From: Bacteroidales bacterium Bact_16
GTDB taxonomy: Bacteria > Bacteroidota > Bacteroidia > Bacteroidales > UBA932
Length of the DNA: 11,525 bases
Reading direction: 5' to 3'
Assembly (NCBI GenBank): GCA_001602885.1
Contig: LUZH01000108.1
Coordinates: 1-11,525 of the forward strand
How positions within the stretch are numbered: position 1 is the stretch's first letter; each line of letters opens with the position of its first letter. Under the pieces are notes generated by a model. That model saw nothing but the letters and a program-made list of their open reading frames with translations, searched no databases and had not been told where the DNA came from. Shown piece by piece: positions 3-10,235 of the stretch. Both the position numbers and the translations under genes were made by a program.

Positions 3-377
3 GCCATCCTGACCGCACTGGCCGTTGGGAGCCATTTCTTCGAGGCGTGGCTGGACCGGCGGTATCCTGGGCGGCCGGGGCCCATCAAGTTCACGTCGGA
101 GCGCAAGCCGGTCTCCCTGCCGCTCGACGAGATCCTCTACGTAGAGTCCAACGACGACATCACGACCGTCGTCGCGACGCAGGGCCGGCGCTACAAGAAC
201 TACACCCCCATCTCCCAGTGGGAAAGCAATCTCAGCCCCCGCTTCATCCGGATCCACCGCGCCTACCTGGTCAACCGGACCGCCGTCACCGGCGTCGACG
301 TGGACCTGCTCTACATCGGCGACATCCAGCTACCCATCTCCCGCAAATACAAAGACACCGTCCGCACCCTGAACTGA
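3..377 (+). CDS. Membrane-anchored LytTR DNA-binding regulator, C-terminal part (5' truncated by window)
   Basis: An open frame enters from the left edge and ends at TGA 375-377, giving the last 124 residues. The first ~17 visible residues (AILTALAVGSHFFEAWL) look like the end of a transmembrane helix, followed by a basic, proline-rich linker. From about residue 30 the sequence matches the LytTR fold: a strand with DEILYVES, a Y-K-N-Y segment, then the signature FIRIHRAYLVN and the terminal LPISRKY strand/helix. LytTR domains bind DNA as direct-repeat dimers. In Bacteroidetes they are often attached to membrane segments instead of a receiver domain, and this protein seems to be that type. The neighbour at 416 follows after 38 bp on the same strand with no TAnnTTTG box between, so co-transcription is plausible. 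The sensor part lies outside the window, so its signal cannot be inferred. Confidence 0.9.
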   Translation, partial: AILTALAVGSHFFEAWLDRRYPGRPGPIKFTSERKPVSLPLDEILYVESNDDITTVVATQGRRYKNYTPISQWESNLSPRFIRIHRAYLVNRTAVTGVDVDLLYIGDIQLPISRKYKDTVRTLN

Positions 378-415: not shown

Positions 416-3400
416 ATGAACAAACTGTTGTTTGACGCGAATGGTGACGTCATCCAGGGCCCCTACACCGTGGCCGGACATTATCAGTACGAGCAAGAAT
501 ATGAAGGGAAGAAAAGTGTACTGTCTTTTATCCGGAAAGGCGACAGCCTGATAATCCCGGAGAGTCAGATCAATTTTGACGGAGAGAGCGACTACCTCGA
601 ATTCAATTTCCGGGTGGACACCCCGCCCGAAAAGGAAACGGGTATCGTATCCGGGAAGGCCATCCCCTTTACCCTGAGCTGTCTGGCCGGCGAAAAAGGG
701 CTTATGCTCCACGCCCGGCTGGTCACGGTCCACAACGACAAGAAATATATCCGGGAATGTGAATCGTCCATACCTTTGGAATATGCCGTCTGGTACAACT
801 TCAAGATCATCCTCATCCACGAAGAATACTGCGTGCTGGTTGACGACCAGCCGCATATGAGAAGGATCTACAAAGGCGCGTGGAAGACAGACTACACGCC
901 GCAGAATCTTGTATTCTGCGGCGGCGAGCAGACCGGCCTCCACCTGTGCGACATCGCGTTTTCCGAAAACATTTTCGAGGAAGCCACGGCGGACAGCATA
1001 AGCGCGACGCTTCAGCGCATGAATGACAGTGATTATATGGAAGTGGACAGCTGCATCCGGGACTGCGCACTGGACGGCATTGTTCTGCAAGGTTTCTGTG
1101 CCCGAACGAAGATAGACGGGAAGTTCTGCTGGGTATATGAAAACGGCGCCATCGTCTTCGACTATGAAGACAAGGCCATCTATCTGCCCCCGGCTCTCTT
1201 AAAGAGTTATCAATCCAACACTCGTGATCTCGGCCGCCCTGTCGCATATACGTCCTATACGTGCGAAGATGACGGCAGCGAAATCCAGTTCGGCCTGTTC
1301 ACGAACGGGGGGCTCTTCTACAACGTCACCAAAGACGAAAGGATATTTCTCAAAGGCGATATTCTGAAGCGCTTCCTGGACAGCGACCTGAAAATCAACC
1401 ATTTCTGGTATCCCGTTGATTCCGGCCACTACGACAATCCGGTCAGAATCGACTTCACGGTATTCTCCAACGGTCTTGTCATCTATGCCTTCGACGCGCA
1501 GACCGTCTTACTTCCCTGCTCTTTCCACGACTATCTCTGGCAGGACAACAAACTGCTCCGGAAGACGGGCCTGCCGCTCAGCGACTACCGGATCGGCGTC
1601 AACGCCAAGGGCGAAAAGTGTTACGAGGCGCTTGAATGCCAGAACGGCACCATCCACAGCACGGACTCGTTCGAATGCTTTTTCAGCGACAGAAAACTGG
1701 GAAAAGCTGTAAAGCTGGACGGCAAAAAAGAAGACCCTGACGGAGAGACAATCCATTACTATGACTTTGAAAACGGGGTTATCGTACTGTATCCCGGACA
1801 AAACACACCCGTCGTATACGAAAGCTTGCTCCTGACGCTTTCAAAAGTTACGGCCGGCGAAATAAATGATGCAATCAACAAAACGCCCGAATTATTTCTG
1901 AAATTCACGCTGATCCAGGACAAAAAGAAAATCGTGGACAAAAAAAGGCTGGGGTCAGATGACTATTTGCATGCATCATCCAATTATGTCTGGACAGATG
2001 ACCGGATGTTTAAAATCAGTCCTCTCCAGGGCAACAGCTATTTCCGGCTCAAAATCGATTTATATGATTATGACCCGGAGTCAAGCGCTGATTATCTCGG
2101 AACTTTCGATTATACTTTCAGCATCGAAAACGGTTGGGGGCTCGAGTCCGGCGATGAGGACGGGAATCCGAAACCGCAAGTGTGCACGCTTCCCATGACG
2201 GAAGGCGGAAAAGACAACAGGCACGGGCTGTACAACAACATGCTCGTGCTTACCCTGTCTGAAGCATTTGACCGCAGCGAAATGATGAAAGACATTATGA
2301 AAAACTATACGCTGCCTTTCAAGAATTTCACAGGTTCCTATCTGTTTACCCCTGACGATTTCACCCGGGTTTTCTCGAACGTAAACAAATGGGGCTCCGT
2401 ATTCAGCTGCCTCGAGCACCCGATAGATGCGTTCTTCTACTTCGCCTGCCTGGTTGCCCTCGACGGCGCAAAATGCTTTGGATTTGCCACTTCAGAAGTA
2501 TTAGCCATTCACGATTTAAGCCACTTCACCCCTCCTCTCTACAAGTATTCTGCTCCGGAAGGTTTTAGCCCGAACGAGACTTATGCCAAACTGGGACCGG
2601 AATACGGAAAACCCATCTGCGATTATTATCTCTATCAGTTAGGGTGGGACGCCATCATGTGGGGGTGGAAGAAAATGAATGCCGGCGAGTATCTTACGGC
2701 CCACAACAGCATCGAAGGCATCATCAAGTGTCTGGATCAAGACAAATGCTGCCTTCTCTGCATGCTTCCGCCGAAAATGTTGGACGCGCATGCCGTGATG
2801 GCGTATGGTTATAAGCAGATCAAGCCCGAAGAAAGAGACGGGAACGGCTATTACACATATATAGACAAAAATGGGAAAGAGACAAAGATTAAAGCAGATT
2901 ATGACTATTTGATTTATATCGCTGACTGCAATTATCCTCAACAAAGTCCGGAAGAAAAGGTTTCCTGCTTCATTTCATTCGAAAAAGAAAGCCGCCGGAC
3001 AGACCGGGTTAGAGTCTATTGGACAAAGGACAGGGAAATAACCGATTCGGATGCCTATTCGAAGGAAGGTTTTAAATACCTATATATGACCCCCGTCTCC
3101 ATTCTTTCCCGGCCGCCGAGAGTTCCGAACTTTCTGGACCTTACAATAGAAACGTTTACCACGATGGTCTGTGGCTGGTTCAGCTGCGCAGCCGACAGTA
3201 TCCAGATAACCGATCCGGACACGGACGAAGTCCTGTATGATCCGGAAAATGATGTCCTGAAGACCGACCGCATCATGGTCCGCCCGAACATGGCCGCCGA
3301 CGGGAAGGACAGCCCCACCCTGTTCGTCCTCAAAGGCAACAACCTCAACGTCAAGTTCCGGGGAGCAAAGAAACAGGATCTCGACCTGCGCATCGCCGGA

Positions 3401-3907
3401 CGAGAGGCCTGTGCCAGCTTCAAGACCGGGCTGGCCAAAGGCGAAGAGCTTGGATTCACCTTCCGGAATGTCCACCGCCCGGACAGATTCACAGCCGCCA
3501 TCCACCCGAGCTTCGCGCACAAGGCCGTCCAGACCGAGATCAGTTTCGCGGACAGGCGCGACAAGTCTCAGAGACACGTGTTCAAGGAAGGACTCGTCAT
3601 AGACAAAGGAGGCACGAAACTCGCGTCCCTCTGCGTCGGCGCCCGGATGAAAGTGAACGATACCGTCATCAAGGCTGCGCAGGAAAGGATTGAAGTTCCG
3701 ATCAGCCGCGCCCGGCGGATCGAAATGAGAAGGGACTATCCCGGAGCGACCGTCATGAACCGGAATCTGACGACCACCCAGATCAGCGCGCTGTACCATA
3801 TCGGAAAATCTACGGCGCGGGCGTACTGTCGGCAGGGTCTGATCCCGGAGGCCAGGAAGGCCAACAAGAGATGGAGCATTCCTTCCGAGAACAACGCCGT
3901 CAAGTAA
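416..3907 (+). CDS. Giant multidomain protein: ConA/LamG-like + five LGFP-like units + C2-like + papain-like cysteine protease + C-terminal HTH
   Basis: The protein has 1163 residues from ATG 416. I see no signal peptide, lipobox or membrane helix. Domains by eye: residues ~25-185 are a beta-rich ConA/LamG-like jelly roll (VWYNFKIIL and VDDQ strands, closing CDIAFS). Residues ~215-475 hold five LGFP-like units, each centred on an aromatic-x-N-G turn. Residues ~490-580 are C2-like, with the acidic loop DLYDYDPESSADYLG. Residues ~620-870 are a papain-like cysteine protease core: Cys687 in KCFGFATS, His792 in DAHAVMAYGY, and Asp837/Asn839 in ADCNYP. Residues ~900-1110 are beta-rich and unassigned. 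Residues 1118-1160 are an excisionase/MerR-type HTH (TTTQISALYHIGKSTARAYC, then GLIPEAR and RWSIP). LamG, LGFP and C2 modules are usually extracellular, so the HTH is unexpected. The gene is AT-richer than its neighbours, especially at 1850-3050. The existence of the gene is certain. The protease and HTH are fairly secure, while the LamG and C2 assignments are fold-level guesses. Its biological role is unknown. Confidence 0.88.
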   Translation: MNKLLFDANGDVIQGPYTVAGHYQYEQEYEGKKSVLSFIRKGDSLIIPESQINFDGESDYLEFNFRVDTPPEKETGIVSGKAIPFTLSCLAGEKGLMLHARLVTVHNDKKYIRECESSIPLEYAVWYNFKIILIHEEYCVLVDDQPHMRRIYKGAWKTDYTPQNLVFCGGEQTGLHLCDIAFSENIFEEATADSISATLQRMNDSDYMEVDSCIRDCALDGIVLQGFCARTKIDGKFCWVYENGAIVFDYEDKAIYLPPALLKSYQSNTRDLGRPVAYTSYTCEDDGSEIQFGLFTNGGLFYNVTKDERIFLKGDILKRFLDSDLKINHFWYPVDSGHYDNPVRIDFTVFSNGLVIYAFDAQTVLLPCSFHDYLWQDNKLLRKTGLPLSDYRIGVNAKGEKCYEALECQNGTIHSTDSFECFFSDRKLGKAVKLDGKKEDPDGETIHYYDFENGVIVLYPGQNTPVVYESLLLTLSKVTAGEINDAINKTPELFLKFTLIQDKKKIVDKKRLGSDDYLHASSNYVWTDDRMFKISPLQGNSYFRLKIDLYDYDPESSADYLGTFDYTFSIENGWGLESGDEDGNPKPQVCTLPMTEGGKDNRHGLYNNMLVLTLSEAFDRSEMMKDIMKNYTLPFKNFTGSYLFTPDDFTRVFSNVNKWGSVFSCLEHPIDAFFYFACLVALDGAKCFGFATSEVLAIHDLSHFTPPLYKYSAPEGFSPNETYAKLGPEYGKPICDYYLYQLGWDAIMWGWKKMNAGEYLTAHNSIEGIIKCLDQDKCCLLCMLPPKMLDAHAVMAYGYKQIKPEERDGNGYYTYIDKNGKETKIKADYDYLIYIADCNYPQQSPEEKVSCFISFEKESRRTDRVRVYWTKDREITDSDAYSKEGFKYLYMTPVSILSRPPRVPNFLDLTIETFTTMVCGWFSCAADSIQITDPDTDEVLYDPENDVLKTDRIMVRPNMAADGKDSPTLFVLKGNNLNVKFRGAKKQDLDLRIAGREACASFKTGLAKGEELGFTFRNVHRPDRFTAAIHPSFAHKAVQTEISFADRRDKSQRHVFKEGLVIDKGGTKLASLCVGARMKVNDTVIKAAQERIEVPISRARRIEMRRDYPGATVMNRNLTTTQISALYHIGKSTARAYCRQGLIPEARKANKRWSIPSENNAVK
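1061..1840 (+). repeat. Five LGFP-like protein repeats (coding repeat within the giant protein)
   Basis: Five segments share an [aromatic or Cys]-x-N-G turn followed by a hydrophobic strand: YENGAIVF (residue 241), FTNGGLFY (295), FSNGLVIY (350), CQNGTIHS (408) and FENGVIVL (451). The spacings are 54, 55, 58 and 43 residues, close to the ~54-residue period of LGFP repeats. Several units are preceded by a LGFP-like phrase (LGRPVAYTS, TGLPLSDY, LGKAVKLD). LGFP repeats are known from secreted cell-wall-associated proteins and esterases, where they are thought to anchor or bind the envelope. Here the units are strongly diverged, so the assignment rests on periodicity and the NG turn rather than on identity. 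Confidence 0.6.
3767..3895 (+). other. C-terminal helix-turn-helix (excisionase/MerR-like, HTH_17 type) domain of the giant protein
   Basis: Residues 1118-1160 read as a compact winged helix of the excisionase type: helix 1 (TTTQISALYHI), turn (GKS), recognition helix (TARAYCRQG), then the wing (LIPEARKANKRWSIP). The terminal R-W-x-I-P is the usual end of the wing in this family. These domains occur in excisionases, small phage or transposon regulators and MerR regulators, nearly always as short stand-alone proteins. The reading frame from the protease into this domain is continuous, with no internal stop, so it is a genuine fusion in this sequence unless an assembly error is involved. Confidence 0.75.
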
Positions 3908-3934: not shown

Positions 3935-3956
3935 TATCTTTGCGTAGATATTACGC
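3935..3956 (+). promoter_or_regulatory. Promoter -7 box with overlapping inverted repeat upstream of the Nudix/NrtR gene
   Basis: TATCTTTG at 3935-3942 fits the Bacteroidetes -7 element TAnnTTTG. No clear TTTG -33 box lies at 19-21 bp spacing. Immediately downstream is a perfect inverted repeat GCGTA-N5-TACGC (3942-3946 and 3952-3956), ending 2 bp before the ATG at 3959. An operator over the transcription start would suit autoregulation by the NrtR-type protein encoded just downstream, but that is inference. The leader is only about 10 nt. Confidence 0.6.
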
Positions 3957-3958
3957 GT

Positions 3959-4642
3959 ATGTATACCTACAAGTACCCCCACCCCGCTGTCACGACGGAC
4001 TGCGTCATCTTCGGCTACGATGTCCGCGAAGGGCTGTCCGTCCTGCTGGTCCAGCGCGGCATCGAGCCGTACAAGGGCCGCTGGGCATTCCCCGGCGGCT
4101 TCCTGCAGATGGACGAGGACGCCGACACCGGCGCCCGGCGCGAACTGAAGGAGGAGACCGGCTTCGAAGCCGCGTCCATCCGCCAGTTCGGCACCTTCAC
4201 CGCCGTGGACCGCGATCCGCGCGAGCGGGTCATCACCATCGCCTACATGGCGCTGGTGCGCAAAGGGGGCGTCCAGGGCGGCGACGACGCGGCCGACGCG
4301 CGCTGGTTCCCGGTGTCCGACGTCCCGGCACTGGCCTTCGACCACGACCGCATCCTGCGCATCGCGCTGGACCGGCTCAAGGAGGAGATCCATTTCCACC
4401 CCGTGGGCTTCGAGCTCCTCCCGGAGGTCTTCACGCTCCCGCAGCTGCAGGCCCTCTACGAGGCCATCCTCGGCGTGCGCTTCGACCGCCGCAACTTCGC
4501 GGCCAAGATGCTGAAACTCGGCATTCTAACGCCGACGGGCGACCGTCCGGCCGACGCGGCGCGGCGCATCCCGCAGACGTATCGGTTCAATCCGCAGAAA
4601 TACGGTGAGTTGAAGCAGAGCGGCTTCCGGCTGGAATTCTAA
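3959..4642 (+). CDS. Nudix hydrolase with C-terminal NrtR-type winged helix (ADP-ribose-linked regulator or hydrolase)
   Basis: The protein has 227 residues. The N-terminal Nudix domain (~1-140) carries a complete Nudix box at residues 47-69: G47, E53, R61-E62, E65-E66, G68. The upstream EPYKGRWAFPGGF is typical of this branch. The C-terminal part (~155-227) has the NrtR winged-helix phrases LLPEVFTLPQLQALYEAILG and FDRRNFAAKM and the terminal YRF segment. NrtR-family proteins are repressors whose Nudix domain senses ADP-ribose or, in Bacteroides relatives, sugar-pathway ligands; many regulators lose the catalytic box. Here the box is intact, so the protein could still hydrolyse its ligand. 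ATG 3959 is chosen because it sits just after the -7 box and the MYTYKYPHPAVTTDCVIF start is typical of the family. Its TAA overlaps the TAG of the convergent TIR gene by 4 bp. Function as enzyme or repressor is undecided. Confidence 0.92.
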   Translation: MYTYKYPHPAVTTDCVIFGYDVREGLSVLLVQRGIEPYKGRWAFPGGFLQMDEDADTGARRELKEETGFEAASIRQFGTFTAVDRDPRERVITIAYMALVRKGGVQGGDDAADARWFPVSDVPALAFDHDRILRIALDRLKEEIHFHPVGFELLPEVFTLPQLQALYEAILGVRFDRRNFAAKMLKLGILTPTGDRPADAARRIPQTYRFNPQKYGELKQSGFRLEF

Positions 4643-5610
4643 TAGCGGAATGTCTCCAGGAAGCGGGCCAGGTTCATGAATCCCTCGAACCAGTGGCCGA
4701 CCACCACGATGGCGCACTTGACGGCCAGATAGACCAGGATGAGGTTCTCGGGGTCGTTGAGTTTGAGGAGCGTCTGCTCCCGGCTCATCTGCTGGAAGAA
4801 GCTCTTCCGGCTCGGGGTCCTGACCCGGCAGCTCAGGAAGATGACGAGCCAGCCCAGGAACAGCAGCCCGGCGCAGATGAACAGGTCGATCCGGTTCATG
4901 ACGAAAGCGGCGCAGAGCAGCAGGCCGACGAGCAGCGCCGGCAGCAGGAAGACGCAGCGCCGCTTGCGCAGCATCCGCAGGAGATAATAGATGGACATCA
5001 GCAGCGTGGCCTCCCCGACGAATCCCACCAGCCCGCCGATGACCTCGCTGGTCTGCAGGGTCTTGGACCAGAGGAACAGATAGGTCAGCAGGGCATAGAT
5101 GCCCGTCAGGACGACAAGCGCCGCATAGAGGACGAAGGTCGTCAGGCGCGGGAACTTGCCGAACTCGATGCCCGTGGTGGTGTCGAAGGCCGGATGCTTG
5201 ACCAGGGCCACAATGCGCTCCAAGGCGGCTTTCTGCCCCAGCTCCACCCAGTCGACATACTGTACGGAAGAGAGATACAGGCTCACGGCGTCGCCGTACG
5301 GAGAGGCGTCCAGCCGCACCGGGAGGATGCGCTTGCCCATCTGCACGGCCGCGCTGATCTCCCGGAGCGTCCACTCCGAGGCGTTGGCCGCCTCGGTGGA
5401 CAGGAACAGGAAGACGTCGCATTCCTTGATGTTGCGGCTGATCCGCGCGGCGTAGGTGTCGCCGCCGGCAAGATGCTCCCGGTCGAGCCAGTAGGAGATC
5501 CCCTCCCGCTGGAAAGCGGTCAGGATGGCATCCACGCAGCTGCCCGGGACCACGCTGCCGTCGGCGGCGATGTAGTCCTTCTTGGCGTAGCTGATGAATA
5601 CCCGGGCCAT
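4639..5610 (-). CDS. TIR-domain protein with multiple C-terminal transmembrane helices
   Basis: The protein has 323 residues. The N-terminal TIR domain (~1-135) starts with MARVFISYAKKD, continues with REGISYWLDREHLAGG and CDVFLFLSTEAA, and has the WTLREISAA helix, where Glu84 sits at the position of the catalytic glutamate of NAD-cleaving TIR domains. After a ~20-residue linker come about five hydrophobic helices (~156-182, 188-212, 218-237, 241-262, 289-312), so the TIR should face the cytoplasm. Known bacterial TIR domains cleave NAD or make cyclic ADP-ribose products, often in antiphage defence; others act in protein assembly. The frame stays open to an ATG at 5661, but the ATG at 5610 is preferred because a TATCTTTG box lies 7 nt upstream and the TIR fold begins exactly there. 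It is divergent from creD and convergent with the Nudix gene. A defence role is possible but unproven. Confidence 0.9.
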   Translation of the reverse strand: MARVFISYAKKDYIAADGSVVPGSCVDAILTAFQREGISYWLDREHLAGGDTYAARISRNIKECDVFLFLSTEAANASEWTLREISAAVQMGKRILPVRLDASPYGDAVSLYLSSVQYVDWVELGQKAALERIVALVKHPAFDTTTGIEFGKFPRLTTFVLYAALVVLTGIYALLTYLFLWSKTLQTSEVIGGLVGFVGEATLLMSIYYLLRMLRKRRCVFLLPALLVGLLLCAAFVMNRIDLFICAGLLFLGWLVIFLSCRVRTPSRKSFFQQMSREQTLLKLNDPENLILVYLAVKCAIVVVGHWFEGFMNLARFLETFRY

Positions 5611-5617
5611 ATCATCA

Positions 5618-5625
5618 CAAAGATA
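5618..5625 (-). promoter_or_regulatory. Promoter -7 box for the TIR gene
   Basis: On the minus strand the octamer TATCTTTG (plus-strand CAAAGATA) fits TAnnTTTG and ends 7 nt before ATG 5610. Transcription from it would give a leaderless or nearly leaderless mRNA. No TTTG -33 box is seen at the usual spacing. It decides the start codon of the TIR gene. Confidence 0.6.
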
Positions 5626-5677
5626 CACAACTCCTCCGGATAATCCGGCAGGCGGCGCCAAATAATTTTTATGTATT

Positions 5678-5730
5678 TTTTACGCAAAATGTTTGGAATT
5701 CTCATTCTGCCCGCATATCTTTGCGTAAAA
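5678..5730. repeat. Inverted pair of 11-bp elements (TTTTACGCAAA / TTTGCGTAAAA) in the TIR-creD intergenic region
   Basis: TTTTACGCAAA at 5678-5688 and its exact reverse complement TTTGCGTAAAA at 5720-5730 flank the creD promoter. Their centres are 42 bp apart, about four helical turns. The right copy overlaps the -7 box and the likely start of transcription. The core TTTGCGTA recurs at the Nudix promoter (3939-3946). The arrangement suggests a regulator bound at two sites on one DNA face, or looping. Part of the right copy is shared with the TTTG of the -7 box, which lowers its weight. Confidence 0.5.
5692..5723 (+). promoter_or_regulatory. Bacteroidetes-type promoter of creD
   Basis: A TTTG box at 5692-5695 is followed after exactly 20 bp by TATCTTTG at 5716-5723, a textbook Bacteroidetes -33/-7 pair. 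The in-frame TTG at 5721 lies inside the -7 box and so cannot be the start codon. This places the creD start at ATG 5745, about 21 nt further on. Confidence 0.8.
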
Positions 5731-5744
5731 TTTACACATACGCT

Positions 5745-7016
5745 ATGAAGATTAAAGATTCCCTCCCGCTCAAGATCCTCCTGATGGGTCTGATGACGCT
5801 CCTGCTGCTCATTCCGCTGATCATGGTCAGAAGCCAGATCGACGACCGCCAGCGCGCCGCCCGCGACAGCCAGTCCGACGTGGCCGACAGCTGGGGCCAC
5901 GCCCAGCAGCTGGCCGGCCCGTTCCTGGAACTCACCTATTCCGTCGAGGTCCAGAACGGAAAAGAGAAGACCAGCAACCTGGAAACGGCCCGGATCTATC
6001 CCCGCACCCTCTTCTGCGACATCGACCTGTCCACCCAGACCCTCCACCGCTCCATCTATGACATCCTGGTCTACGGATCCCAGATCACGCTTACGGGCGA
6101 TTTCGTCATCCCGGCCATCTACGGCGAGATGCTGTCGAACGGCAAAGGGATGGCGCTGACGGACCAGCAGGTCGTGCTCGGCCTGAGCGACCTGCGCGGC
6201 GTCGACGGCACCGTCTCGCTCCGCCTGGGAGAGCAGGACTACACGTTCCATTCCGGGAGCAAAAGAGGGCACCTGGAAGCGGCGCTGATCGAGCCGGTCC
6301 GCCTGGACGCCGCCCTGATGGACGGCCAGACGGCCATCCCCTTCCGGCTCACCTGCAGCCTGCGCGGCTCCTCTTCCCTGATGGTCAAGCCCTACGGCGA
6401 GACCACCGAAGTGCGGATGAAATCCAATTGCCCGGATCCTTCCTTCACCGGCGACTTCCTGCCTGCGGAGCGCGAGGTGACGGACGAAGGCTTCACGGCG
6501 CGCTGGTCCGTGTCCGAGATCAACCGCGGCGCGCCCGACGACACGTCCTTCGGCGTGAGCCTCCTGCAGGGCGTGACGCAGTACCAGCAGGCCGAGCGTT
6601 CGGCCAAATACGGCGTGCTTGTCATCGTGCTGATCTTTGCGGCGGGACTGGCCGTGGAGGTGGCCACGAAGAAGAAAATCAACCTGGTCCAGTATCTGGT
6701 TATCGGCCTCTCCCTGATCCTTTTCTATGCGCTCGTCCTGGCCTTCTCCGAGTTCGTCAGCTTCCCGCTGGCCTACGCCATCGCGGCAGCGATGACCGTC
6801 GCGGCCCTGCTCGGCTACTTCCGGGGCATCCTGCGCGACCGCGCGGCCTGGGTCCTGGCAGCTGCCGTCGCCCTGGCCTACCTGCTCAGCTACTTCCTGC
6901 TCCAGATGGAGACCTACGCATTCATCGCAGGCACGCTGGTCCTGTTCGTGCTGCTCACAGGCGTGATGTATCTCACGCGCAACCTGAACAAAGAGAGCGC
7001 CGCCGATCAGGCCTGA
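5745..7016 (+). CDS. creD: CreD family inner membrane protein
   Basis: The protein has 423 residues, close to the ~450 of Escherichia coli CreD. One helix at residues ~8-28 is followed by the CreD signature around residues 45-65 (ADSWGHAQQLAGPFLEL; the family pattern is WG..Q.L.GP.L), then a ~230-residue periplasmic beta-rich domain. The C-terminus has about five helices, starting with the AKYGVLVIVLIFAAGLAVEV segment and ending in ETYAFIAGTLVLFVLLTGVM. CreD is an inner-membrane protein tied to envelope stress and beta-lactam response in enterobacteria through the CreBC system; its biochemical activity is not known. No creBC-like genes are visible here, so control is probably different in this organism. 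The gene is transcribed alone from its own promoter and ends in a 10-bp convergent overlap with the wzc-like gene. Confidence 0.9.
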   Translation: MKIKDSLPLKILLMGLMTLLLLIPLIMVRSQIDDRQRAARDSQSDVADSWGHAQQLAGPFLELTYSVEVQNGKEKTSNLETARIYPRTLFCDIDLSTQTLHRSIYDILVYGSQITLTGDFVIPAIYGEMLSNGKGMALTDQQVVLGLSDLRGVDGTVSLRLGEQDYTFHSGSKRGHLEAALIEPVRLDAALMDGQTAIPFRLTCSLRGSSSLMVKPYGETTEVRMKSNCPDPSFTGDFLPAEREVTDEGFTARWSVSEINRGAPDDTSFGVSLLQGVTQYQQAERSAKYGVLVIVLIFAAGLAVEVATKKKINLVQYLVIGLSLILFYALVLAFSEFVSFPLAYAIAAAMTVAALLGYFRGILRDRAAWVLAAAVALAYLLSYFLLQMETYAFIAGTLVLFVLLTGVMYLTRNLNKESAADQA

Positions 7017-9460
7017 CCGTCCTCCGGCTTCTTCCGGGAGCCGTCGAGGCCATAGCCGTAGCCGTAACCGTAGCCATAACCTACACCGGTGCCTGACCCG
7101 TAGCCCACGCCATAGCCATAACGATATTTCCTGGCGTTGCGGTTGAAGTCATTGAGCACGACACAGGGGTTGCAGACCGGATTGACCGGATTGTGCGCGG
7201 CGGCGTCGATCTCCCGGAGGAGCTTGAGCGAGGTGTAGTCGCAGCGCACCACGAACAGGGTGGCATCCACGCTCTTGTTGACGATGGACGAATCCGCCAC
7301 GGGGAAATACGGCGTGCTGTCGATGATGACATAGTCGTAGCGGGAGCGCAGCTCCGACAGCAGCTCCACGTGCCGACCGCGGGTCAGCAGCTCGTCGGGA
7401 TCCTGCGCCACGGGGCCCGCGGGGATCAGGTCCAGATGGCGGCTGATGCCGCTCGGCACGACGATCGCGTCCACATTTGCCTGGGAGCCAGACAGATAGC
7501 CGACCAGCGAGCCGGCCCTGTCGGGCTCGGCGATGTGGAAGACCTTGCAGAGGGTCGGCTTGCGCAGGTCCATCCCCACCAGCACCGTGCGCCGGCCGCC
7601 ATAGGCCAGCGCCAGCGCCAGGTTGGCCGCCACGAAGGACTTGCCCTCGCCCACCACGGAGGAAGTGACCTGCAGCACGGACACGCCGTCCAGCGACTGG
7701 ACCATCGTCCGCAGCATCCGGAACGACTCGCAGAGCGAATTCGTGCCGCCCCGCGGGATCAGGCGGCTCTCCGCCGCCCCCGCGCTCGGCAGCACGGCCA
7801 GCACGGGCGCCTTCAGGACGCCCTCGACGTCCTCGCGCGTCTCCACTTTATTCCGCGCATAGGCGCGCGCCCGCTCGACGCCCGGACACACGGCCAGGCC
7901 GAAAAGCAGGGCCAGCAGATACACCGAACGCTTGTTGGGCGAGACCGGCGCCTTGGAGCCGAAAGCCGGCTCGATCACGCGGAAGGAATCCTCCTCGCCG
8001 TACATCGTGATCATATTTTCCTCGCGCTTCTGCTGCAGCAGCTGGTAGAGCGGCTCGATGACCTCGAGCTTGCGCGAGAGCTGCTGGAGCTCGAGCTGCT
8101 GCTGCGGGATGGCGGCGATCTGGCTGCGGTTGCGGTTGAGCACCTTCTCCAGCTCCTGCTCGCGCAGCGTATACACCTTCACCAGGTTGGCCAGCGAGAG
8201 CTCGATGTTCTTGCGGCTGACTTCCAGCTCGGTGTTGACCGAGAGCACCTTGGGGTTGTTCTCCGAAGAGTTGGCCACCATCCGGTTGCGGTCCACGATC
8301 TTCTCGTTATAGTCCTTGATCGCCTCGATCAGGCTGGCGCCCGTGATGCCGAGGTTGGACGGGACCGCCCGGTAGAGACCCTGGGGCGTCTCCTCCATAT
8401 AGGCCGCCACCATGTTGAGGATCTGCAGCTGGAGCCGGACGTCCGTCAGCTGGTCGCGGTAGGACATGTCGCTGACGATCGTCAGGTCGGTCTGCGAATC
8501 GCTGTTGACCAGCGCGCGGGCGGACTGATAGTCCTTGTAGCCGGCCTCGGCGGCGCGCAACTGGTCGGAGATCTCCTGCAGCCGCCCGTCGATGAACTCG
8601 ATGATGCTCAGGTTGGTCTGGGCCTTGTACTTGCGCGTGTCCTGGTTGGACACGTCCACCAGCGTATTGAGGATGTCGGACGCGCGGGTCGGCGAAGAAT
8701 CGGTGAACGAGGCGAGGACGACGTCCGTGCGGTTGGATTTGTTGCCCTGCACGGACACGGACAGGCGCTCCACGAAGCTGCGCGCCGTCTCGTAAGGCGC
8801 GCTCCAGGTGGCGGCGTAGCGGGCGCCCGCCACCATCTCGCGCGGCAGGTCCAGCTGCAGCGCCAGGCGCGAGCCCTCCAGGCGGAGCGTGTCGCCGTAG
8901 GCGAACTGCGTCCGCTCCAGCTGGCGTTTCTCGCCGTCCACCAGCAGCTTGTCCACGCGGAAGGAGCTGTCGGCAAGATGCCGGAATTCGAGCCGCACAG
9001 ACACGGGCTGCAAGCCCTCCGGATAGGCCGGATCGCGGACGTAGGCCAGCGAGAAAGGGTTATTGCCATAATATTCCACCTTCTTGAAGGCGAAGATGCC
9101 GCGCGCCCCGGCGGACTTGCCCCGGCCCACCGGCACCTTGTACTGGTAGTAGCGCGTGTTGAGATGCAGCCGCTCCACCACCTGGCGCATCAGCGACGGG
9201 CTGCGCAGGATGAACACTTCGTTGTCCATCCGCTTGCTGCCCGTGGCTTCCGGGACGCCGGGCAGCGCCAGCTCGGCGTGGATGCTGTTCTCATTGCCGT
9301 TCAGCTTGATCCAGGTCGTCCGTTCGTAGACAGGGGTGCGGGTCTGCAGATAGCAGAACGCCGCGAACAGCGACGCCGCCACGGCGATGATGATCCACAC
9401 GCGCAGGCGCCACACATAGTCAAGGAATTCCCGGATGAGTACGTTACCGTTGTTTTCCAT
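7007..9460 (-). CDS. wzc: Polysaccharide co-polymerase / BY-kinase (Wzc-like tyrosine autokinase)
   Basis: The protein has 817 residues. The N-terminal Wzz part has TM1 at ~17-38 (RVWIIIAVAASLFAAFCYL). A long periplasmic section with coiled-coil stretches (~270-310 and 400-470) ends in the GNVR-type region (PQQQLELQQLSRKLEVIEPL), followed by a second, short membrane segment (SVYLLALLFGLAV). The cytoplasmic kinase has Walker A SSVVGEGKS (Lys607), Walker A' VGMDLRKP and Walker B YVIIDSTP. The tail holds nine tyrosines in its last 41 residues, the expected autophosphorylation cluster. In Wzc-type systems the kinase cycles between phosphorylated and unphosphorylated oligomers to drive and size polysaccharide export. 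Its ATG is separated by a single base from the stop of the Wza-like gene, so the two are an operon. No glycosyltransferase follows: the downstream neighbour is convergent creD. Confidence 0.95.
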   Translation of the reverse strand: MENNGNVLIREFLDYVWRLRVWIIIAVAASLFAAFCYLQTRTPVYERTTWIKLNGNENSIHAELALPGVPEATGSKRMDNEVFILRSPSLMRQVVERLHLNTRYYQYKVPVGRGKSAGARGIFAFKKVEYYGNNPFSLAYVRDPAYPEGLQPVSVRLEFRHLADSSFRVDKLLVDGEKRQLERTQFAYGDTLRLEGSRLALQLDLPREMVAGARYAATWSAPYETARSFVERLSVSVQGNKSNRTDVVLASFTDSSPTRASDILNTLVDVSNQDTRKYKAQTNLSIIEFIDGRLQEISDQLRAAEAGYKDYQSARALVNSDSQTDLTIVSDMSYRDQLTDVRLQLQILNMVAAYMEETPQGLYRAVPSNLGITGASLIEAIKDYNEKIVDRNRMVANSSENNPKVLSVNTELEVSRKNIELSLANLVKVYTLREQELEKVLNRNRSQIAAIPQQQLELQQLSRKLEVIEPLYQLLQQKREENMITMYGEEDSFRVIEPAFGSKAPVSPNKRSVYLLALLFGLAVCPGVERARAYARNKVETREDVEGVLKAPVLAVLPSAGAAESRLIPRGGTNSLCESFRMLRTMVQSLDGVSVLQVTSSVVGEGKSFVAANLALALAYGGRRTVLVGMDLRKPTLCKVFHIAEPDRAGSLVGYLSGSQANVDAIVVPSGISRHLDLIPAGPVAQDPDELLTRGRHVELLSELRSRYDYVIIDSTPYFPVADSSIVNKSVDATLFVVRCDYTSLKLLREIDAAAHNPVNPVCNPCVVLNDFNRNARKYRYGYGVGYGSGTGVGYGYGYGYGYGLDGSRKKPEDGQA
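7051..7082. repeat. Imperfect hexanucleotide repeat encoding the Gly-Tyr tail of the Wzc-like kinase
   Basis: About five imperfect six-base units (plus strand catagc / cgtagc / cgtaac / cgtagc / cataac) encode a Gly-Tyr dipeptide run on the minus strand. The third codon positions vary between TAT and TAC and among GGN codons. The repeat is therefore kept at the protein level rather than being a recent slippage product. Confidence 0.75.
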
Positions 9461-9461
9461 T

Positions 9462-10235
9462 TTATTTGAGCAGGCTGATGATGGCGATGACGGTCGAAAT
9501 GGACGAAAGGACGGCGCCCCAGACGCTCGGGCCGTTGTTTTTGGTCATCAGGCGGGTCGAGCTGGGCGGGACATAAATGATGTCGTTCTGTTGCAGATAG
9601 AAGTAAGGCGAATCCAGCAGCGAGCTCTCGCGGAGGTCCAGCGCGTAATGCTGCATCACGCCGTCCACCTCGCGCAGGAGGAGGATCCGGTCGCGCTTCG
9701 CGGCCACGGTCAGGTCGCCCGCCAGGCCCAGGGCCTGCAGGACGTTGATCCGCTCCGTCTTGTAGGTGTAGGTGCCCGGCGAATTGACCTCGCCCAGGAC
9801 CGTGATCTTGTAGTTCTTGAAACTGACGTACACGATGGGATTCTTGACGTCCTTGCCGATCTCCTCCGTGAGGTAGTCGATCAGCTCCAGGCGCGTCATC
9901 CCTTCGACGTGGATGCGCCCGAGCACGGGAAAGTTGATGTCGCCGTTGGTGTCCACCACGAAAGACATCATCGGCGTCTCGGGCTCGTTGTGCGTCGTGA
10001 AGCCGGACGTGATGTCGGCCAGGGTCATATTGTAGGGATCCGTCACGCTCTTGTCCGGACCGCTGACGATAATCTTGAGTTCATCGTCACGTTTGATGAC
10101 CAGTTCATAGTGTTTGGCAAGTTGTCCCAGCGACACCTCGTCGATGTCCTGGAAATACAACAGATCCCGGGATGTCGCGCATCCGGTCAATACCAGCAAA
10201 AAGCTGATCAAGGCAAGTTGGCAAACCTTTTTCAT
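9462..10235 (-). CDS. wza: Polysaccharide export outer-membrane lipoprotein (Wza-like)
   Basis: From ATG 10235 the protein has 257 residues. It starts with a lipoprotein signal, MKKVCQLALISFLLVLTGC, with lipobox LTGC and acylated Cys19. After the YFQDI phrase common in Bacteroidetes homologues comes the poly-export domain (~45-130; YELVIKRDDELKI and VVDTNGDINFPVLGRI), then a SLBB domain (~137-185; ITVLGEVNSPGTYTY and LQALGLAGDLTVAAKRD). A C-terminal hydrophobic helix follows (~238-257, WGAVLSSISTVIAIISLL), as in Wza barrels. The frame is open to an ATG at 10310, but only the 10235 start puts the signal sequence at the N-terminus. It is shorter than E. coli Wza (~380 residues), which is normal for this phylum. 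It forms the outer-membrane exit for polysaccharide together with the Wzc-like protein encoded one base downstream. Confidence 0.94.
   Translation of the reverse strand: MKKVCQLALISFLLVLTGCATSRDLLYFQDIDEVSLGQLAKHYELVIKRDDELKIIVSGPDKSVTDPYNMTLADITSGFTTHNEPETPMMSFVVDTNGDINFPVLGRIHVEGMTRLELIDYLTEEIGKDVKNPIVYVSFKNYKITVLGEVNSPGTYTYKTERINVLQALGLAGDLTVAAKRDRILLLREVDGVMQHYALDLRESSLLDSPYFYLQQNDIIYVPPSSTRLMTKNNGPSVWGAVLSSISTVIAIISLLK

Follow-up and report, generated by a model that had tools for sequence, protein, structure and literature searches.

The gene at positions 416 to 3,907 of the window analysed here (11,525 nucleotides of Bacteroidales bacterium Bact_16, contig LUZH01000108.1) encodes a large leaderless protein (P0001) that joins recognition modules of an outside type, a papain-like cysteine protease region and a DNA-binding helix-turn-helix (HTH) tail in one chain. 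These parts stay together in relatives sharing only 27-31% identity, apparently across two phyla. Each module is known, and their combination in a single leaderless chain was not found described in the libraries and papers searched. We tentatively propose a LytTR-controlled, calcium- and glycan-directed cysteine protease that would act outside its producer, with the HTH serving as an autoregulator inside. The architecture, conserved residues, joint inheritance and operator repeats were computed here; from them we infer the mechanism.

The initial annotation had reported one uninterrupted 1163-codon frame lacking a secretion signal, and both points were confirmed. An in-frame TAA lies two codons 5′ of the ATG, which excludes a hidden leader, and a hydropathy scan of the 1163-residue protein found no signal- or transmembrane-helix-like peak. 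The domain reading (lectin-like, LGFP-like, C2-like, protease, HTH; Table 1) also stands, some modules being weakly matched. The HTH is the only part of P0001 that Pfam, PADLOC or PHROGs can name at E ≤ 0.1, NCBIfam names nothing (0 families), and the open-access literature searched yielded no paper with such module combinations.

A database search with P0001 retrieved eight relatives, seven at 53-61% identity and one at 30%. A genome scan found a further copy (locus L001) in G001, a metagenome-assembled genome titled Clostridiales bacterium RGIG5968 from sheep omasum. Four more relatives, including P0015, a 916-residue record beginning within the LGFP part, came from a search with the copy of a second genome, G145; with the eight of the first search they make 12 distinct members besides P0001. 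A profile search with alignment A1 brought no additional relatives and missed P0009. Members are about 1,150-1,210 residues long; the family alignment has 15 rows, representing 13 distinct sequences, and an earlier alignment had 10.

The HTH tail is kept throughout the family, HTH_17 (PF12728) being matched in 15/15 alignment rows at E ≤ 1 (best 1e-7). Four members (P0002, P0003, P0005 and P0008) carry a precomputed Pfam HTH_17 entry, and P0001 itself scores 24.7 bits, below the cut-off of 27. DNA binding is predicted from this profile match. Evolutionary distances of the HTH track those of the protease, indicating that the two were inherited jointly. The initial annotation had asked whether protease and HTH co-occur in homologues, and they do: homologues do not end before the HTH. 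We therefore rule out a fusion created by assembly or frameshift, in favour of which nothing was found; the HTH occurs both in hosts that have Shine-Dalgarno sequences and in hosts that lack them. No such sequence was seen by eye before any of the seven window genes compared, family gene included, and most of the 17 listed open reading frames (ORFs) of L001, again including the family gene, are preceded by purine-rich stretches resembling one.

In the protease region, K-C...H is invariant in members down to 27-31% identity, and the C-to-H spacing is 102-112 residues across the family. Papain-clan (CA) enzymes have the catalytic Cys at the start of a helix, His at the start of a strand and Asp or Asn after the next strand. 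The predicted model (predicted local distance difference test, pLDDT, 64.7 overall and 44-46 around the Cys) follows this rule at all three positions. Structural comparison leans papain-like with weak fold matches, no named Pfam peptidase family was matched in 10 family rows at E ≤ 10 or in 15 rows at E ≤ 1, and no PDB chain matched residues 610-914 by sequence. The outcome for the papain-like core of the initial annotation is thus mixed: the catalytic layout agrees with it, the fold leans weakly towards it, and peptidase sequence matches give it no backing. Protease activity is accordingly a prediction. The weak fold matches, and the replacement of D837 by E in 5/15 rows (4/13 distinct sequences) and of N839 by T in 3/15, would also suit a protein that binds or scaffolds without cleaving, or an enzyme of papain fold with other chemistry (a transferase or transglutaminase-like enzyme). 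We regard this as rather improbable, given the invariant K-C...H and the fact that E in place of D837 is a plausible acid.

At the recognition end, an LGFP propeller fold is supported for residues 205-436, at 12% identity to the LGFP domain of MytA (6swz, 6sx4). The Pfam LGFP profile (PF08310) matched neither P0001 nor the 10- and 15-row alignments, and it was found in 0/3 carrier genomes (control search positive in 2/14). The best PDB matches to the C2 core are PKC and synaptotagmin C2 chains, at E values of only 0.031-0.057, and the C2 profile (PF00168) was matched in 3/15 rows (best E 0.0073). Four acidic residues (D485, E492, D551 and D553) are identical in 15/15 rows and D559 is D or E; these we take to occupy the calcium-ligand loop positions of a C2 domain, so that the protein is predicted to depend on calcium.

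The suggestion in the initial annotation to look for LytTR proved right. The window gene follows the 3′ part of a LytTR gene with which it possibly forms one operon; any promoter of the LytTR gene lies outside the window. Independently, two copies of TTTTTACTTTGTC stand 20 bp apart upstream of the L001 gene, with a third near-copy. A longer paired repeat with this 20-bp period occurs at eight sites in G001 (≤3 mismatches; reversed control, 0), one of them directly before agrB, whose locus also encodes a LytTR response regulator and a GHKL histidine kinase. Within that clostridial family 9/115 genomes carry the repeat, at 40 sites in all (11 of the 32 outside G001 were inspected); in three relatives of G001 it separates agrC from agrB, and one of the three also has it upstream of agrA. 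Its layout before agrB and the target genes fits LytTR/Agr regulons, in which direct repeats are paired at a period of about 21 bp. LytTR sites described in the literature (PMC6193735) lie close upstream of -35 and consist of two 9-bp repeats with a spacing of mostly 12 bp, in some cases 11 or 13; the 20-bp period (9 + 11) matches this layout. The repeat thus looks like a LytTR/AgrA operator that would place the G001 family gene under a cell-density signal. It also gives the outline of an Agr quorum regulon in one clostridial family. The L001 family-gene promoter further has a -10-like TATAGT (9888-9893) and a perfect 12-bp inverted repeat (9900-9928) over the likely transcription start, present at one place in G001, which could be an HTH operator or an RNA stem (z -3.1). 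Two independent hints, one per host group, tie the family to LytTR control. Weighing against our proposal, the same search found no paired repeat in G145 or in G109, the third clostridial carrier, leaving two of the three without a LytTR hint.

Other G001 repeat sites lie ahead of small leader-bearing proteins and, by eye, an ATP-binding cassette (ABC) transporter operon. One such protein weakly resembles the JUQZ bacteriocin family (E 0.0027, below the cut-off), and the small leader-bearing proteins recognised by eye behind the repeat (L027:3353-3697, L028:4103-4848, L028:7849-8316, and in L040, L041, L045 and L046) may be bacteriocin-type products of the clostridial Agr regulon. The L027 operon behind the repeat continues to a solute-binding protein (Pfam), with look-alikes in L028 (by eye). 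A 748-residue leaderless protein (L025:1765-4011, minus strand), which matched nothing in Pfam or NCBIfam, lies behind a repeat-bearing promoter that differs very little from the one upstream of the clostridial family gene. Also on L025, a 612-residue protein (4878-6716, minus strand) has a HEFGH zinc-peptidase-like motif by eye, and two similar lipoprotein-like ORFs adjoining it (6951-7580 and 4217-4867, plus strand) could be its partners.

Lectin, LGFP and calcium-type C2 modules under quorum control fit action at an outside surface, and the DNA-binding tail is consistent with a function within the producing cell. In the mechanism that we propose, expression would be under LytTR-type control (the Agr quorum regulon in G001, the LytTR neighbour in the window). 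While the protein is in the producer, where cytosolic calcium is low, its recognition end would be inactive and it would be tethered to DNA by the HTH, in the simplest case as a repressor of its own promoter. After leaving the cell by lysis or another route, the protein would meet millimolar calcium and glycans that engage its C2 and lectin parts; the putative ConA-like lectin, LGFP propeller and C2 would then aim the protease at a glycan- and lipid-bearing surface, where it might act on nearby cells or the proteins that they expose.

Alternatively, and we think this somewhat unlikely, the protein would stay inside as a breach sensor, its lectin and C2 parts reading glycans and calcium that could enter the cytosol only through a broken envelope; once activated, the protease would cut the linker at residues 1081-1108, releasing the HTH to act as a transcription factor, or would degrade cell targets. 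The missing leader is in keeping with this, as are a cysteine content exceeding that of the few envelope proteins compared, the HTH kept in all rows and inherited with the rest, and the lack of conservation in the linker (0/28 positions) beside a conserved HTH; calpain, too, pairs C2 with a cysteine protease. Release is, however, the better fit to a G001 operator shared with leader-bearing proteins, and no neighbour gene is common to the three loci with a neighbourhood (window, L001, G145). A fuller version, in which outside-only cues make the protease cut off its own HTH and so turn damage into a transcriptional response, with quorum/LytTR signalling setting the protein supply, we consider doubtful.

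The family is rare and scattered, apparently spanning two phyla (some rumen Clostridia and the Bacteroidota window host). In the order of G001, 6/188 genomes matched: three true members (G001, G145 and G109, the last with its gene interrupted by a contig end) and three unrelated HTH matches. The taxonomic family of G001 has the gene in 3/115 genomes, and a class sample in 1/391, G001 itself. The window gene has a guanine-plus-cytosine (GC) content of 51.5% vs 55.6-67.1% for six other window genes, and a third-position GC of 0.66 vs 0.80-0.91, which suggests that it was acquired.

This sporadic occurrence and low GC, with the absent leader and a protease joined to a DNA-binding tail, would suit an effector that an injection or contact-dependent system delivers straight into a second cell, its HTH acting on target DNA. 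Several results make that improbable. No injection-system gene was found by Pfam among the seven other window genes and ten L001 genes, or by eye in the rest of the L001 contig, where mutS, mutL, miaA and lexA were recognised. The contractile sheath family PF17482 was found in 0/3 carrier genomes, a weak negative as these are drafts (control positive in 3/14). No family copy was present in the phage records, plasmid records and viral contigs searched, and at 40.7% GC the L001 gene is no outlier among the 16 other ORFs there (37.6-48.6%). Export by a contractile injection system, raised in the initial annotation, thus gained no support.

Table 1. Features of the family gene and its LytTR neighbour in the window (all on the plus strand).
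Feature	Positions	Residues	Remarks
LytTR gene, 3′ part	3..377		Pfam LytTR E 2.4e-16; 38 bp gap to family gene
Family gene	416..3907		Single frame, 1163 codons; 1163-residue leaderless protein P0001
ConA/LamG/galectin-like lectin fold, tentative	479..868	22-151	
LGFP-type propeller	1028..1723	205-436	
C2 domain core	1847..2119	478-568	D485, E492, D551, D553 invariant
Papain-like cysteine protease region	2243..3157	610-914	
Putative catalytic residues	2474-2476; 2789-2791; 2924-2926	C687; H792; D837	
Hydrophobic segment	3116..3205	901-930	Contains PRVP
Fast-evolving beta-rich domain	3155..3619	914-1068	TerD-like match weak
Linker 5′ of HTH	3656..3739	1081-1108	Unconserved, 0/28 positions invariant
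HTH_17/MerR-type DNA-binding domain	3767..3883	1118-1156	

Downstream of the window family gene, TATCTTTG at 3935-3942 stands ahead of the next gene and resembles the Bacteroidota-type -7 element; together with the lack of Shine-Dalgarno sequences in the window, this points to a Bacteroidota host as probable. The family gene also has, at a distance of about 730 bp, a neighbour encoding a TIR_2 domain protein (4639-5661, minus strand; Pfam E 3.6e-18) with C-terminal hydrophobic segments by eye, possibly a defence gene. Beside the G145 family gene, L011:6613-7329 (minus strand) encodes by eye a metallopeptidase-like protein with a ricin-type tail.

The family lends itself to asking by what route large leaderless proteins exit rumen- and gut-type bacteria, and whether one protease can be at once the target of a regulon and its own regulator. 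Among known systems, the LGFP-bearing MytA (mycoloyltransferase A) of Corynebacterium glutamicum is a cell-envelope enzyme, a different enzyme from a different host group. Calpain lacks the lectin and HTH parts and has the reverse domain order, and the family protein has no Pfam peptidase match. HTH_17/MerR/excisionase-type domains usually form small stand-alone proteins, whereas here the domain is the tail of a large one. The papain-clan proteases IdeS/Mac-1 and T-Mac (TDE0362) have a C-to-H spacing of 149-168 residues and no sequence match to the family protease region in the PDB search; to our knowledge, neither carries an HTH, C2 or LGFP domain. IdeS occurs outside the cell, as does T-Mac according to its published description. 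As in Agr/LytTR regulons, agrB and leader-bearing proteins are preceded by paired direct repeats, whereas the repeat sequence is particular to these genomes and the family target is leaderless.
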